Assembly: GCF_009363155.1 (NCBI RefSeq)
Contig: NZ_CP045302.1
Coordinates: forward strand, 2,525,001 to 2,589,000
Direction: 5' to 3'
Length of the DNA: 64,000 bases
Source: Azotobacter salinestris
GTDB taxonomy: Bacteria; Pseudomonadota; Gammaproteobacteria; Pseudomonadales; Pseudomonadaceae
Shown: in pieces, positions 27,171 to 53,856 of the stretch
Numbering within the stretch: position 1 is the stretch's first letter
Layout: every line of letters begins with the position of its first letter
The notes under the pieces: generated by a model
What the model was told of the DNA's origin: nothing
The model's input: only the letters and a program-made list of their open reading frames with translations
Database searches by the model: none
Made by a program: the position numbers and the translations under genes

Positions 27171-27230
27171 AGGCTTGTCGACCTAATGCGCAACGGCATG
27201 CCCGACAGCCCGCGCCGCGCGCCGCAACGC

Positions 27231-27992
27231 TCAGTCGCCGGCCAGGGCCGCTTCGCTGAAATAGGGGGTGCGGTGCAGCTGCGCCGCACCATAACGGACC
27301 ACCAGGCAGCTGTTGCGCTCCACCCGCTCGGCCGCCCCGAGCAGCCCCTGCTGACGAATCAGCACGTCACCCTTGCGCAGCGCCAGCAGGCGCATGGCCT
27401 GCCCGGCCGACGACTCCTGGGCGCGCGTCCGCTGCAGGCGCACCTCGAGCTGGCGCCACTGCTCCAGACTCGCACCCTCCTCGTGCATCCGCTGCAGCTG
27501 GGCGGCCAGTGCCGGATTGCCGGCCAGCAGTCGCCGCAGGGAGCGACGGCTGTCCAGATGACTGCCCGGCTGAACCTTGAGTCCGGCCTCGAGAGGAACC
27601 GAGCGCAGGGCGATCAGGACGCTCAGGTGCGGCGCATCGCCCGTGCAGGCACCGCAGGCGAGCGATACCGGCGCGCTTTCGAAGGCATCGATGCCGAGCA
27701 GATAGCTTCTCTCGCCGGCCAGCATGTTCAGCGGCGCGAGCAGTCGCTCGTGCAGCACCAGACCGAGGATGCCGGCCGCCTGCAGGCGGAAGGCGCTGCG
27801 CTGGCGCAACGCCTGCGGATGGGCCTGGGGCTGCCTGCCGGACGGCTTGCAGCGCAGACGGTAGGCCGCCACCGCGGCGGCATGCCGGTCGACCAGGCTT
27901 TCGGGAAGGCAGTCGCGCAGCAGGATGAAGCCGTCGCGAGCGAACGCGAAGCTGTCGGGCAGCAGTGCGGTTGCGCGGCTTGCTTCCAGCAT
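27231..27992 (-). CDS. PhyH-like protein lacking metal ligands
   Basis: 253 aa from ATG 27992, preceded by AGGAGG; a longer frame to 28058 is less likely. The beginning FARDGFILLRDCLPESLVDR and the middle SVLIALRSVPLEAGLKVQPGSH look like phytanoyl-CoA dioxygenase family proteins. The HxD pair expected before that strand reads GDAPH, and the distal His (LLHGSGPN-like) reads LLGAAERV, so iron binding is doubtful. Preceded by its own NifA-type promoter. Probably the nif-region hypothetical of A. vinelandii; function unknown. Confidence 0.65.
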   Translation of the reverse strand: MLEASRATALLPDSFAFARDGFILLRDCLPESLVDRHAAAVAAYRLRCKPSGRQPQAHPQALRQRSAFRLQAAGILGLVLHERLLAPLNMLAGERSYLLGIDAFESAPVSLACGACTGDAPHLSVLIALRSVPLEAGLKVQPGSHLDSRRSLRRLLAGNPALAAQLQRMHEEGASLEQWRQLEVRLQRTRAQESSAGQAMRLLALRKGDVLIRQQGLLGAAERVERNSCLVVRYGAAQLHRTPYFSEAALAGD

Positions 27993-28102
27993 GGTCCAGG
28001 ACCTCCTGCAGTGACGGCATGACGGACCGACAGCGGGCAGCCCCGTGCTGACAGACATGCGTTATATAAAGACAGACACCAATAATTGCTGACTGTGTGT
28101 GG

Positions 28103-28219
28103 TGCAATGAATCTGCCAATGCGTTAAATTTAGGCAAAACATGGGGTTGCGCCGCATTCCGGCTTGTCTACTTATACACAAAGCTACATATATAAATCGA
28201 CCTTGTCCCCTAGCCGACA
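28103..28219 (-). promoter_or_regulatory. Promoter of the PhyH-like gene: sigma-54 element and two NifA UAS
   Basis: On minus, TGGCAGATTCATTGCA (28118-28103) fits sigma-54. Two exact TGT-N10-ACA sites lie upstream at 28165-28180 and 28204-28219. No exact IHF consensus is seen, but the spacer is AT-rich. The second UAS could also serve the plus-strand modC-like gene, which has no evident sigma-54 element. The rest of the 27993-28365 spacer shows nothing else firm; a GTTATATAA stretch at 28062-28070 weakly recalls a ModE half-site. Confidence 0.8.
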
Positions 28220-28365: not shown

Positions 28366-29442
28366 ATGCCAGAACAAGGGATAGAGGTGCAGCTGCGCCT
28401 GGAGCGAGGGGCCTTCCGGCTCGATGCCCGCCTGCAACTGCCGGGCAACGGTATCAGCGTGCTGCTCGGCCGCTCCGGCAGCGGCAAGACTACGCTGTTG
28501 CGCGCCATCGCCGGACTGGAGCGGGCCGAAGGCTTTCTCCAGGTCCGCGGGCAGCTCTGGCAGGACGCCATCCGCTTCCGTCCCAGCCACCAGCGTGCGC
28601 TGGGCTATGTCGGCCAGACCAGCGAGCTGCTCCCGCACCTGAGCGTGCGGGCCAACCTTGAATTCGGCTACCGGCGTACACCCTGCGCCCGACGGCGCCT
28701 CGGCCTCGACGAGGCGATCGGCCGGTTCGGCCTTGAGGATCTGCTCGACCAGCGGGCCGGGCGGCTTCCCAACGGCCCACGCCAGCGCGTGGCGATCGCC
28801 TGCGCCCTGCTGACCAGCCCCGACCTGCTGTTGCTGGATGCTCCGCTGGCCTGTCTGGACCGTCATAGCCGGGCGGAGATCCTCCCCGTTCTCGAGCAGC
28901 TGCGCGCGCGGCTGCAGCTTCCTCTGCTTTACGTCACCCACAGCCAGGACGAAGTTACCCGACTGGCCGATCATCTGGTTCTGCTGGACAAGGGCAAGAC
29001 ACTCGCCAGCGGCTCGCCGGAATTGTTGCTGAGCGATCCGCGCCTGCCGCTCGGCCATCCGGACGAAGCCGCAGTGGTGCTCATCGGCCAAGTGGAGCGC
29101 CACGATCTGCATTACCGGCTGAGCACCGTCCGGGTGCCCGGCGGCATCCTCAGCGTCGCCCTCAGCCGCCTGCCGCCGGGGGCGGAGACGCGGGTGCGCA
29201 TCTTCGCCCGGGACGTGAGCCTTTCCCTCGATCTGCCCCACAACAGCAGCATTCTCAACATCCTCCAGGCCCGCATCGTCGACCTGTTCCACGAGCACGA
29301 CTCGGCACGGGTCATGGTGCGCCTGGACCTGAACAGCGCCTGCATCCTGGCGCGGATCACCCGCCTGTCGGCCGACCGGCTGGGGCTGATGCCGGGCCGG
29401 CGGGTGTATGCGCAGATCAAGTCGGTGGCGGTGATGGAGTGA
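28366..29442 (+). CDS. ModC-like ABC ATPase with degenerate catalytic motifs
   Basis: 358 aa. N-terminal ABC domain plus C-terminal TOBE/Mop domain (SILNILQARIVDLFHEHDS onward), the layout of molybdate transporter ATPases. Walker A GRSGSGKT (35-42), Q-loop Gln84 and H-loop His192 are intact. The signature LSGGQ is LPNGP (134-138), and the catalytic Glu after Walker B Asp158 is Ala159. No modA or modB is adjacent. ATG 28366 is chosen because family homology begins there; upstream sequence is non-coding. It may bind nucleotide and molybdate without normal turnover. Confidence 0.85.
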   Translation: MPEQGIEVQLRLERGAFRLDARLQLPGNGISVLLGRSGSGKTTLLRAIAGLERAEGFLQVRGQLWQDAIRFRPSHQRALGYVGQTSELLPHLSVRANLEFGYRRTPCARRRLGLDEAIGRFGLEDLLDQRAGRLPNGPRQRVAIACALLTSPDLLLLDAPLACLDRHSRAEILPVLEQLRARLQLPLLYVTHSQDEVTRLADHLVLLDKGKTLASGSPELLLSDPRLPLGHPDEAAVVLIGQVERHDLHYRLSTVRVPGGILSVALSRLPPGAETRVRIFARDVSLSLDLPHNSSILNILQARIVDLFHEHDSARVMVRLDLNSACILARITRLSADRLGLMPGRRVYAQIKSVAVME

Positions 29443-42543: not shown

Positions 42544-43828
<1,285 letters not shown>

Positions 43829-50696: not shown

Positions 50697-51101
50697 TCAA
50701 CTCTGCTGACGGAGGTGGGCCACCAGGGCGCTGTCCATGGTCTTGGCGTGCAGGTCGAACCAGGCCGGCAGGCTGTCGTTCAGCCAGGCACGGGCCATCT
50801 GTGCGCGGCCGGCGGCGGCGCGCTGGCAGAGGCGGTCCATGTCGCCGAGGATGCGCTGGTGGTTGGCGCGGTGCTCGCCGAAGGCGGGGTAGCCGGAGGC
50901 CTGCATCTTCGCCTCCTCGTCGGCGAAGTGGCGGCTGGTGTGCTCGAACAGCGCCTTGAAGGCGTCGGCGAACTCCGGCCCCCTGGCGTTCGCGGCGGCC
51001 AGGCAGAGTTCGAGGAATTCGCGGTGGGTATGGTCGATCGCCTCGTCGCCCAGGGCGTAGCTGTCCTGGAAGCGCTCCAGCATTTCTTGGGGGGTGGGCA
51101 T
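50697..51101 (-). CDS. Bacteriohemerythrin
   Basis: 134 aa. Diiron O2-binding protein. Ligands expected by the family are visible: His24 or His26 in AIDHTHREF, His54 and His58 in EHTSRHFADEE with Glu62, His77 and His81 in EHRANHQR, then His118 and Asp123 in DLHAKTMDSA. Start ATG 51101. In an aerobic nitrogen fixer it may buffer O2; that is inference. Confidence 0.9.
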   Translation of the reverse strand: MPTPQEMLERFQDSYALGDEAIDHTHREFLELCLAAANARGPEFADAFKALFEHTSRHFADEEAKMQASGYPAFGEHRANHQRILGDMDRLCQRAAAGRAQMARAWLNDSLPAWFDLHAKTMDSALVAHLRQQS

Positions 51102-51391
51102 GGCGGATGGTCCTTCTGTGGCAGGGCGCACGAAGGATACGGCAAGCCTGCGATCGGCGGTACGACTTACCCGTTATCAAAAAGCCAGCGCCGACGGCCG
51201 CAGGCCATGCCTTGGCCGCCCCGACTCCCTCGGGAGGACAACCCGTTTTTCCGGCCTGCACCACAGCCAGCCCCTGTTGCACCCTTGTGCGCCCAAGGAA
51301 AACACATCGAAACAGAACCGGCCTTCGGCCACGGGAAAGACGGCCATCACCGAATACCATGGAGCATCGCCAGCAACCAGCCGCCATCCGT

Positions 51392-51532
51392 TGTAGCGTT
51401 GTATACAAAACAACATATCGTAACGACAGACCGAAGCATAGACGACAAGCCAACAGGCTGGGCCATCTATGAATAACTCATTGTTATTATTAATATTTAT
51501 TTATAAGATCGGATACAGGCACATGCATTGCA
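51392..51532 (+). promoter_or_regulatory. Candidate NifA/sigma-54 promoter upstream of the OprD porin
   Basis: Two overlapping exact TGT-N10-ACA sites (51392-51407 and 51400-51415) and AGGCACATGCATTGCA at 51517-51532, which has GGCAC and TTGCA with exact spacing. The AT-rich stretch between (51465-51510) would suit IHF bending though no exact consensus is found. Transcription would begin near 51544, giving a 340-base leader before the porin. Confidence 0.7.
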
Positions 51533-51691
51533 AAAGCGCCGAACAGCAATGCGCAGAAGAATATAGAAAAGGGGATTCCGGCCCCGGCGGCCACTTCAGA
51601 AGACTTCATCCGCTTGCTGCATGGACTGTTTCAGATCGAGCGACCGGGCAACCAATTCCGAGTGCAGCGCTCGGGATGCATTTAGCTTGCC

Positions 51692-51715
51692 GCTAAGGCT
51701 GCATGCCGCCTTAGC
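51692..51715. repeat. Inverted repeat in the porin leader
   Basis: GCTAAGGC (51692-51699) and GCCTTAGC (51708-51715) with an 8-base loop, in the 5' leader of the porin. No T-run; might be regulatory or simply a palindrome. I see no gene in the rest of 51102-51881; an in-frame extension upstream of the porin ATG is not signal-peptide-like. Confidence 0.45.
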
Positions 51716-51881
51716 ACAAGTGACTCAGATCAAGGGAAGACATCATTTCGGGCGGAAGGCGCCGATCTCAATTTTCAAATCGACACACAAATGTCATGTT
51801 CCGCCGCCCGGCACGCCGCAGCCCCCCGGACCGGACCGGCTCATGGACAACATGCACTACACACCTGGAGAAAAGGAACTG

Positions 51882-53228
51882 ATGAACAAGTCCACTCTGA
51901 CTCTGGCCGTGACGGCAGCCATTCTGGGTCAGACCCTGTCGCAACAGGCGAGCGCTGCGGGCTTCTTCGAAGACAGCAAGGCTACGCTCAGCATGCGTAA
52001 CTTTTATTACAACCAGGACATCCGCAACGAGGATCGCGCCGGTTCCGAGGAGTGGGGCCAGGGCTTCGTGCTCGACTATCAGTCCGGCTTCACCGAAGGC
52101 CCCGTCGGCTTCGGCCTCGATCTGCTGGGCTCCTACGGCTTGCGCCTGGATGCCGGCGGCGATGCCGACAAGTCGCTCACCGAGGTCGATCGCGTTCCGG
52201 GACAGGTCTTCCCGCTGGAGAGCAACGGCAAGGCCAAACGCGACTTCGGCCGGCTCGGCGTGACCGGCAAGATGCGCTTCTCCCAGACCCTGGTGCAGTA
52301 CGGCACCCTGCGCCCGCGCCTGCCGGTGGTGATCGCCAACGACGGCCGCCTGCTGCCGCAGACCTACGAGGGCGGGCAGGTCACCGTCAACGAGCTGAAG
52401 GACTTCACCTTCATCGCCGGCAAGCTGGAGCACTCCACCGAGCGTAACTCCAGCAACAGCGACAGCCTGTCCATCGAGGGCTCGAACAACGCCAAGACCG
52501 GCCAGTTCAGCAACGAGTTCTACTACGGCGGCGTCGACTACAAGGTCAACAAGGACCTGTTGCTGCAGTACTACTACGGCAACCTGCGCGACTTCTACAA
52601 GCAGCACTTCCTCGGTCTGACCCACAACTGGGCGCTGCCGGTCGGCGCGCTGAAGACCGACCTGCGCTACTTCGACAGCGACTCCGACGGCGAGAACGCC
52701 AGCGCCTCCGGCCGTGCCGAGGGCTATCGCGCCAACGGCTACTGGGGCGCCGGAAGCTCCAATCGCTTTGAGGTGGACAACCGTGTTTGGAGCGCCATGT
52801 TCACCTACAGCCTGAGCGGCCACTCGCTGGGCGCCGGCTACCAGAAGATCACCGGCAACAGCGACTTCCCGCACCTCAACCAGGGCGCGGGCCGGGTGCT
52901 CTACCTGATCACCGATGCCCAGGTGCACAAGTTCCACAACGCCGGCGAGAACACCTGGGTGGTCAAGTACGCCTACGATTTCGCCAAGGTTGGCGTGCCG
53001 GGCCTGAAGGCCGGCCTGAACTACTTCAGCGGCGACGACATCGATGCCGACGGCAGCGACCGTCGCGAGTGGGAACGCGACTTCCGCCTCGACTACACCG
53101 TACAGGACGGCATGTTCAAAGGCCTCGGCCTCACCTGGATGAGCGCCATGTGGCGCGGCAACGACGTCAACCAGCGGGACGTGGACGAGAACCGCCTGAT
53201 CGTCAACTACAGCATTCCGCTGCTCTGA
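51882..53228 (+). CDS. OprD-family outer membrane porin
   Basis: 448 aa. Signal peptide MNKSTLTLAVTAAILGQTLS ending ASA, then FFEDSKATLSMRNFYYNQDI and QGFVLDYQSGFTEGPVGFGL, clear OprD-family beta-strands; ends in an outer membrane-type strand (IVNYSIPLL). Family members take up amino acids, aromatic acids or other small anions; substrate not evident. AAGGAAC before the ATG. The upstream NifA-type promoter suggests induction during nitrogen fixation. Confidence 0.92.
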   Translation: MNKSTLTLAVTAAILGQTLSQQASAAGFFEDSKATLSMRNFYYNQDIRNEDRAGSEEWGQGFVLDYQSGFTEGPVGFGLDLLGSYGLRLDAGGDADKSLTEVDRVPGQVFPLESNGKAKRDFGRLGVTGKMRFSQTLVQYGTLRPRLPVVIANDGRLLPQTYEGGQVTVNELKDFTFIAGKLEHSTERNSSNSDSLSIEGSNNAKTGQFSNEFYYGGVDYKVNKDLLLQYYYGNLRDFYKQHFLGLTHNWALPVGALKTDLRYFDSDSDGENASASGRAEGYRANGYWGAGSSNRFEVDNRVWSAMFTYSLSGHSLGAGYQKITGNSDFPHLNQGAGRVLYLITDAQVHKFHNAGENTWVVKYAYDFAKVGVPGLKAGLNYFSGDDIDADGSDRREWERDFRLDYTVQDGMFKGLGLTWMSAMWRGNDVNQRDVDENRLIVNYSIPLL

Positions 53229-53242
53229 GCCCTCCGCCGCTG

Positions 53243-53264
53243 AAATCGCAGGGACGCGATTTCG
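53243..53264. terminator. Hairpin after the porin gene
   Basis: 8-bp stem GAAATCGC (53243-53250) with GCGATTTC (53257-53264), 6-base loop, 15 bases after the stop. No T-run, so weak. Confidence 0.45.
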
Positions 53265-53316
53265 CCCGGACAGCCATCGGCGTAATGCCGCCCTCCGCCA
53301 GGACGCTCCGCCGTCC

Positions 53317-53856
53317 CTACAGCGCCTCCTCCTCGACCGGCTCGACCTTGCTCGCCTCGATGGCATAGGCGGCATCCGCCAGCTCGTTGCTGACCTTCTC
53401 GACCCGCAGCGTGCCGTCCACCCACAGCGGGATGGAGATGTCCTCCACGCGAAAGCCCTTCGGATAGCGGACCAGGACGATCTGGTTGGGCGGCGGCGGC
53501 GGCAGATGGATGCAGGCGCCCGGATAGGGCACCAGGAAGAAGGTGGTGCTGTATCCCTTGCCGTCGCTCTCCAGCGGCACCGGATAGCCTCCCAGGCGAA
53601 TCTCCCGGCCGTTCAGCGCCGGGACCGTCTTCGCCGAGTACATCACGGCCGGCAGGTTCCGGGACTTCTGCTTGAGGCCGCCCTTGGCACTGAAGTCGCC
53701 ATCGGCTTCCGGCGTGTCGTGGGTGATGTCCGGCATCTCTTCCAGTGCCTGGCGATCGTCTTCGGGCATCAGTTCCAGCCAGTCCAGTTCCGGCGGTTCG
53801 GCATGCGACAGGGAACTGGCGAGAAGCAGGGTGAGGAGGAACGATGATCGGCGCAT
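53317..53856 (-). CDS. DUF3299 exported protein
   Basis: 179 aa. Signal peptide MRRSSFLLTLLLASSLSHA. Mature domain with LNGREIRLGGYPVPLESDGK and FFLVPYPGACIHLPPPPPNQ, the DUF3299 signature including the CIHxPPPPPN segment. Relatives are linked to ABC-type lipoprotein export clusters. Function unknown. Confidence 0.9.
   Translation of the reverse strand: MRRSSFLLTLLLASSLSHAEPPELDWLELMPEDDRQALEEMPDITHDTPEADGDFSAKGGLKQKSRNLPAVMYSAKTVPALNGREIRLGGYPVPLESDGKGYSTTFFLVPYPGACIHLPPPPPNQIVLVRYPKGFRVEDISIPLWVDGTLRVEKVSNELADAAYAIEASKVEPVEEEAL

Follow-up and report, generated by a model that had tools for sequence, protein, structure and literature searches.

The window analysed here, a 64,000-nucleotide stretch of the Azotobacter salinestris genome, carries on its forward strand a gene for an OprE-like porin of the OprD family (51882..53228, +; 448 amino acids). 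The PF03573 (OprD) match spans residues 26-446, that is, the mature protein (E = 1.3e-131), which bears out the initial annotation of an OprD outer membrane porin. The nearest solved relative is 4FRX (OprE; E = 3e-164, residues 25-448), which we take to be the Pseudomonas aeruginosa protein. OprE of P. aeruginosa is linked to RpoN and induced anaerobically. We took ATG 51882 as the start and regarded a longer ORF from 51621 as mechanical; a probable ribosome-binding site, GGAGAAAAGG (51867..51876, +), precedes this ATG, and its GGAG is conserved in Azotobacter. The source genome is rich in porin paralogues: the search matched 28 stretches, although some of these belong to a single gene. The porin lies about 8 kb from nifH (ORF 42544-43746) in the window, and its copy in A. 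vinelandii lies about 11 kb from the nifH of that species, so that its earlier placement outside the nif cluster holds only loosely.

Two overlapping NifA-type upstream activator sites (UAS), both exact TGT-N10-ACA matches, were found before the porin: UAS 1, TGTAGCGTTGTATACA (51392..51407, +), and UAS 2, TGTATACAAAACAACA (51400..51415, +). They are followed by a sigma-54 -24/-12 element with one mismatch, AGGCACATGCATTGCA (51517..51532, +), and the gaps from the site ends to this element are 109 and 101 bases, in agreement with the initial annotation. The promoter thus has the arrangement typical of the NifA regulon, a -24/-12 element preceded at a distance of about 100 bases or more by TGT-N10-ACA. 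The ATG sits about 350 bases past the -12, close to the 340-base leader first described. The window held 17 exact TGT-N10-ACA sites versus a mean of 5.69 and a largest value of 13 in 100 shuffles, and eight -24/-12 matches with one mismatch versus 2.89 expected. Eight -24/-12 elements, that of the porin included, had a UAS starting 60-190 bases upstream, whereas 60 dinucleotide shuffles averaged 0.42 such elements and never exceeded 2; one of the eight, at the window edge, is doubtful, so the count of seven other complete promoters given at first was about right. Between the UASs and the promoter lies an A+T-rich stretch (51470..51512, +), a partly conserved block in the alignment of four Azotobacter upstream regions, which may be the site of an IHF bend. 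The leader contains a motif that is presumably of the Anr/Fnr type, GTGACTCAGATCAA (51720..51733, +), with TGAY-N4-RTCAA conserved in the four Azotobacter leaders; it could be a second, oxygen-linked input to the porin. An Rfam scan of 51000-53600 returned no Moco riboswitch or other family at the gathering threshold.

The initial annotation had proposed a comparison with related Azotobacter genomes, and we examined the source genome together with three other members of the genus. A syntenic porin copy, with DUF3299 and D-Ala-D-Ala carboxypeptidase genes behind it, was present in all four. Upstream of it, all four carry TGT[AC]GCG[CT]TGTATACAAANNNACA, with a -24/-12 element 113-117 bases past the second TGT, and both the UAS and its partner element therefore stand before the syntenic porin in 4/4 genomes. 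The DNA between the elements is poorly conserved, save for the A+T-rich block and the leader motif. Among 39 other porin loci, a single TGT-N10-ACA was found in three and an overlapping pair in none. Two other OprD-family loci of the source genome (L005 and L016) have sigma-54-like motifs, TGGTCCGGTCGTTGCA and TGGCACCGACCTTGCT, about 320-335 bases before the matched start, without a UAS.

The UASs are interleaved with a ModE box, CGTTGTAT-ACAAAACA-ACATATCG (51397..51420, +), so that 51392-51420 forms one composite block. We scored ModE operators with the core CGNTATAT-N8-ATATANCG, taken from the published E. coli consensus, ATCGNTATATA-N6-TATATANCGAT, as quoted from PMC545781. The box matched 12 of the 14 core positions, and nowhere else in the window did the score reach 11. 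The version found in several relatives, CGCTATAT-N8-ACATAGCG, is palindromic almost throughout, and the ordinary modG-modE spacers of relatives contain the same box as the porin. UAS 2 is made largely of ModE half-sites; it is kept in all four Azotobacter genomes and missing where the element centre reads TATATACA, and the TGT and ACA of UAS 1 are kept in all 13 element places tabulated below. The interleaved operator, the origin of UAS 2 in ModE half-sites and the company of Mo-uptake genes described below had all escaped the initial annotation.

The 24-mer of the composite element was searched with up to two mismatches in 398 Pseudomonadaceae genomes. It was found in 13 genomes (2 for the reversed control), all of them among the 23 that carry nifD (hypergeometric 1e-18, kinship ignored), and was absent from the 375 nifD-negative genomes at this threshold. 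At the 13 tabulated places, the -24/-12 begins 121-144 bases after the element start, so site and spacing are conserved in promoters beyond the four Azotobacter copies; an extra two-mismatch place in G002 (L071) was left out of the table; its -24/-12 is weak, and no ORF was identified behind it. In seven genomes (G050, G079, G084, G092, G142, G171 and G224), the element precedes the modE-modABC genes of the nif island, which are divergent from iscA-nifUSV. In G013 it stands before modE, followed by Nif11 and no modABC, and in G012 before modA, followed by another OprD porin. A nif-linked modE behind the element was thus seen in eight cases outside Azotobacter, 7/8 with modABC. Ten nifD-positive genomes lacked the 24-mer. 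In four of these, a nif-linked modE is accompanied by a variant TGT-N10-ACA, with a good -24/-12 in G029, G051 and G242 and none in the G044 slice; G010 has a nif-linked modE and no UAS in the slice examined; and G027, G040, G060, G076 and G200 were covered around their nif structural genes only.

A wider exact scan covered a genome collection described as comprising 84,980 species, from which the source genome was possibly left out. It gave 21 places, 15 of which had a -24/-12 score of 10 or more at 121-144 bases and preceded Mo-transport genes, the Azotobacter porin or, once, a TonB-type system. We took 12 of the 15 to be genomes already covered by the Pseudomonadaceae search (A. beijerinckii, A. 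chroococcum, A. vinelandii, P. oryzagri, Azomonas macrocytogenes, four S. stutzeri strains, S. azotifigens, P. linyingensis and P. sagittaria). The three new places, all in nifD-positive genomes, were in P. benzenivorans, where the element precedes modE-modABC; in Ectothiorhodospira marina, where it stands before a binding protein matching TupA (E = 1.7e-35, below the curated cut-off), with modE further along the locus; and in Allochromatium warmingii. A NifA gene scored over the cut-off in 16/16 element genomes tested. The other six places (Porphyromonadaceae, Clostridiaceae, Anoxychlamydiales, Oscillospiraceae and two Pelagibacteraceae) were discarded as chance, being in genomes without nifD and having no good -24/-12 (best score 8.7); the Clostridiaceae locus has an ABC ATPase 34% like ModC. 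In Allochromatium warmingii, the genes behind the composite element encode ExbB, ExbD, TonB, a periplasmic binding protein and a TonB-dependent receptor (L160, 1891-7120), a candidate Mo or metallophore uptake system.

On the strength of these comparisons, we consider with high confidence that NifA activates the porin and Mo-loaded ModE represses it. The sigma-54 promoter of this OprE-like porin would then work as an AND-NOT switch: NifA, active in nitrogen-fixing conditions, would bind the TGT-N10-ACA site or sites and act on sigma-54 polymerase about 120 bases downstream, and when molybdate is ample, Mo-loaded ModE on the palindrome in the same DNA would block NifA. In Azotobacter, where the TGTAT form of the left half-site provides the second UAS, competition between the two proteins would extend over almost the entire block. 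Porin synthesis would thus take place in nitrogen-fixing cells that are short of Mo. Known systems offer partial parallels. In P. stutzeri A1501, NifA and RpoN consensus sequences were flagged for 11 operons, among them PST1348 (in the modE position)-modABC, whose expression reportedly all but disappears in nifA and rpoN mutants, with the data "not shown", although the mod genes rise only 1.6-4.1 fold (section 7 of PMC2820453, which does not discuss ModE control). We liken this operon to the element-bearing S. stutzeri loci by its gene order, not by its DNA, and it drives an inner-membrane transporter without a porin. R. capsulatus morAB, which is ModAB-like, provides a precedent for the NifA/Mo logic, being NifA-dependent and Mo-repressed via the ModE-like MopA/MopB, but it is alphaproteobacterial and comprises binding-protein and permease genes rather than a porin (PMC6925177, in the portion cited here, which does not mention interleaved sites). 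The NifA-type promoter put forward in the initial annotation is thus well supported by the layout in all four Azotobacter, by the confinement of the element to nifD-positive genomes and by the reported NifA/RpoN dependence of the A1501 operon.

The gene neighbourhood bears on what the porin might carry. In A. vinelandii, modA-modB-modC lies directly upstream of the porin on the same strand, with the element between modC and the porin; the order in P. oryzagri is element-modA-porin; and a porin adjoins modG-modE-modABC in G029 and lies within 1.5 kb of modG-modE-modABC in G013. Because the same element also drives nif-linked modABC or modA, a molybdate role is suggested, and it is reasonably probable that, on top of the dual control, the porin raises molybdate entry across the outer membrane in Mo-poor nitrogen fixation. 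It would do so by making the membrane more permeable to molybdate, or to a small Mo complex, and thereby feed periplasmic ModA. Weighing against this reading, a hemerythrin gene, and not mod genes, adjoins the porin in the source genome, A. beijerinckii and A. chroococcum. The nutrient import first guessed at (a metal-ligand or anion) is thereby narrowed to candidate molybdate by the ModE box and the Mo-uptake gene company, and the alternative role in ammonium-limited growth found no specific support.

The history of the barrel also has to be considered. In the porin tree, the window porin groups with that of A. beijerinckii, the two mod-linked porins (G013 and G029) and another A. vinelandii paralogue (support 95/93). 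The syntenic A. chroococcum and A. vinelandii porins are placed among other paralogues, and the P. oryzagri porin belongs to yet another clade. In the first 50-column block, the A. chroococcum and A. vinelandii copies are 88% and 92% identical to the window porin, respectively, whereas their remaining blocks are only 59-81% identical to it and reach 89-96% and 84-100%, respectively, with other Azotobacter porins. The hosts thus do not all have the same orthologous barrel downstream of the promoter. The pattern (window 51882-53228 versus L030 and L031) looks like gene conversion, in which promoter and signal peptide stayed and the barrel was overwritten by paralogues; the promoter is the conserved part, and general OprE-type properties may suffice for the pore. 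Totals of K+R and of D+E failed to separate element-bearing porins from paralogues.

The overwritten barrels in two species thus appear to speak against a finely dedicated pore. They favour an explanation in which the dual NifA/ModE control is real and a general OprE-type pore serves mainly not molybdate but vanadate, an iron or metal chelate, or a carbon or nitrogen solute; some other uptake role under Mo shortage, for example for vanadate, may be considered alongside. The missing mod neighbour in three of four Azotobacter genomes points the same way, as does the coincidence of ModE relief with the use of V and Fe-only nitrogenases, reported in the portion of PMC9542535 used here. Set against this are the nif-linked modABC and modA genes driven by the same element in relatives and the four instances of porins beside mod genes, and we regard the general pore as unlikely.

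A less probable explanation reads the block as a ModE operator only, with the TGT-N10-ACA sites as by-products and the sigma-54 promoter served by CbrB, NtrC or a VnfA-type protein. We searched the 23 nifD-positive genomes with the ModE pattern alone and obtained 17 places. The results showed that a TGT 5 bases ahead of the left half-site and an ACA immediately behind it were present in 8/8 porin or nif-linked modE promoters, versus 0/9 other places (six ordinary modE operators and three elsewhere; Fisher 4e-5, kinship ignored), indicating that the NifA triplets come on top of the ModE box. All six ordinary modE operators have a sigma-54-like motif 96-106 bases past the box (five good, one weak) and, unlike the porin promoter, no TGT-N10-ACA at the box, so that NifA control cannot be read from a ModE box and a sigma-54 motif alone. 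This lends the ModE-only explanation some weight, as do two published systems. In the part of PMC6296734 cited here, CbrB binds the P. putida oprD promoter, and its regulon has TGTTAC/GTAACA subsites with 20-25 bp centre spacing before sigma-54 promoters. In A. vinelandii, according to the portion of PMC9542535 used here, ModE1 and ModE2 are redundant at vnfA1, modEA1B1C1 is under ModE repression, and modA2B2C2 has a VnfA1-dependent sigma-54 promoter and is "not apparently regulated by ModE". Both of these operons are Mo-uptake genes, like the company of the porin element, and the modABC beside the A. vinelandii porin is, judging from its place, probably modA2B2C2. The A. vinelandii porin itself is probably Avin_01270, judging from its position relative to Avin_01300. 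In the open-access literature searched, Avin_01300 is mentioned and the locus tags Avin_01260 to Avin_01290 are not. With the NifA spacing in 8/8 composites, element genomes that all carry nifD and the NifA dependence reported for the A1501 operon (PMC2820453, section 7), we judge ModE control without NifA to be improbable, and CbrB is not favoured as the activator. The TGGCA sigma-54-like motif lies 104-106 bases past the ModE box toward modE at L139, L140, L146, L147 and L148, and sigma-54 may likewise drive the general modEABC operon, with a different activator.

Two further explanations are very improbable. Near-palindromes such as GTTGTATACAAA, the block centre in the window, A. beijerinckii and A. 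chroococcum, are common as GntR operators, but an operator for a local GntR-type regulator (TTGTATACAA palindrome) answering to the porin substrate is not favoured because relatives have the centre CTATATACAAA, which preserves the ModE and NifA frames but not the palindrome. An ordinary RpoN-dependent OprE-type porin with chance UAS matches would suit the RpoN link and anaerobic induction of P. aeruginosa OprE, the motifs without UAS at L005 and L016 and the Anr-like leader motif, but hardly a composite conserved in all four Azotobacter and restricted to nifD-positive genomes, or eight UAS-linked promoters versus a shuffle mean of 0.42.

In Gram-negative nitrogen fixers, the passage of molybdate through the outer membrane is generally ascribed to porins that are not further specified, and we know of no named outer-membrane molybdate channel or family. 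Titles and abstracts in the open-access literature searched yielded no molybdate or NifA-controlled OprD porin. A porin under the joint control of nitrogen fixation and molybdenum would make the outer-membrane molybdate step testable. More tentatively, gammaproteobacterial diazotrophs might share a compact NifA/ModE switch over several layers of Mo uptake, with an OprE-type porin recruited in Azotobacter as a dedicated molybdate channel. The interleaved NifA/ModE site would be a simple natural AND-NOT gate that one short pattern suffices to recognise, and this composite pattern points to more candidate Mo-uptake genes in diazotrophs, such as those of the TupA-like protein and the TonB-type system.

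A possibly related motif was seen elsewhere in the window. Pfam searches of the ORFs 27186-28022 (+) and 27231-28058 (-) gave no match. At 28165-28199, TGT-N6-TATACACAAA-CTACA-ATAAA is kept in all four Azotobacter (L181, L182 and L183 outside the window; T at the fourth A in one) and precedes a ModC-like ABC/TOBE gene (28381-29439) inside the nif cluster; it is possibly a degenerate relative of the composite element.
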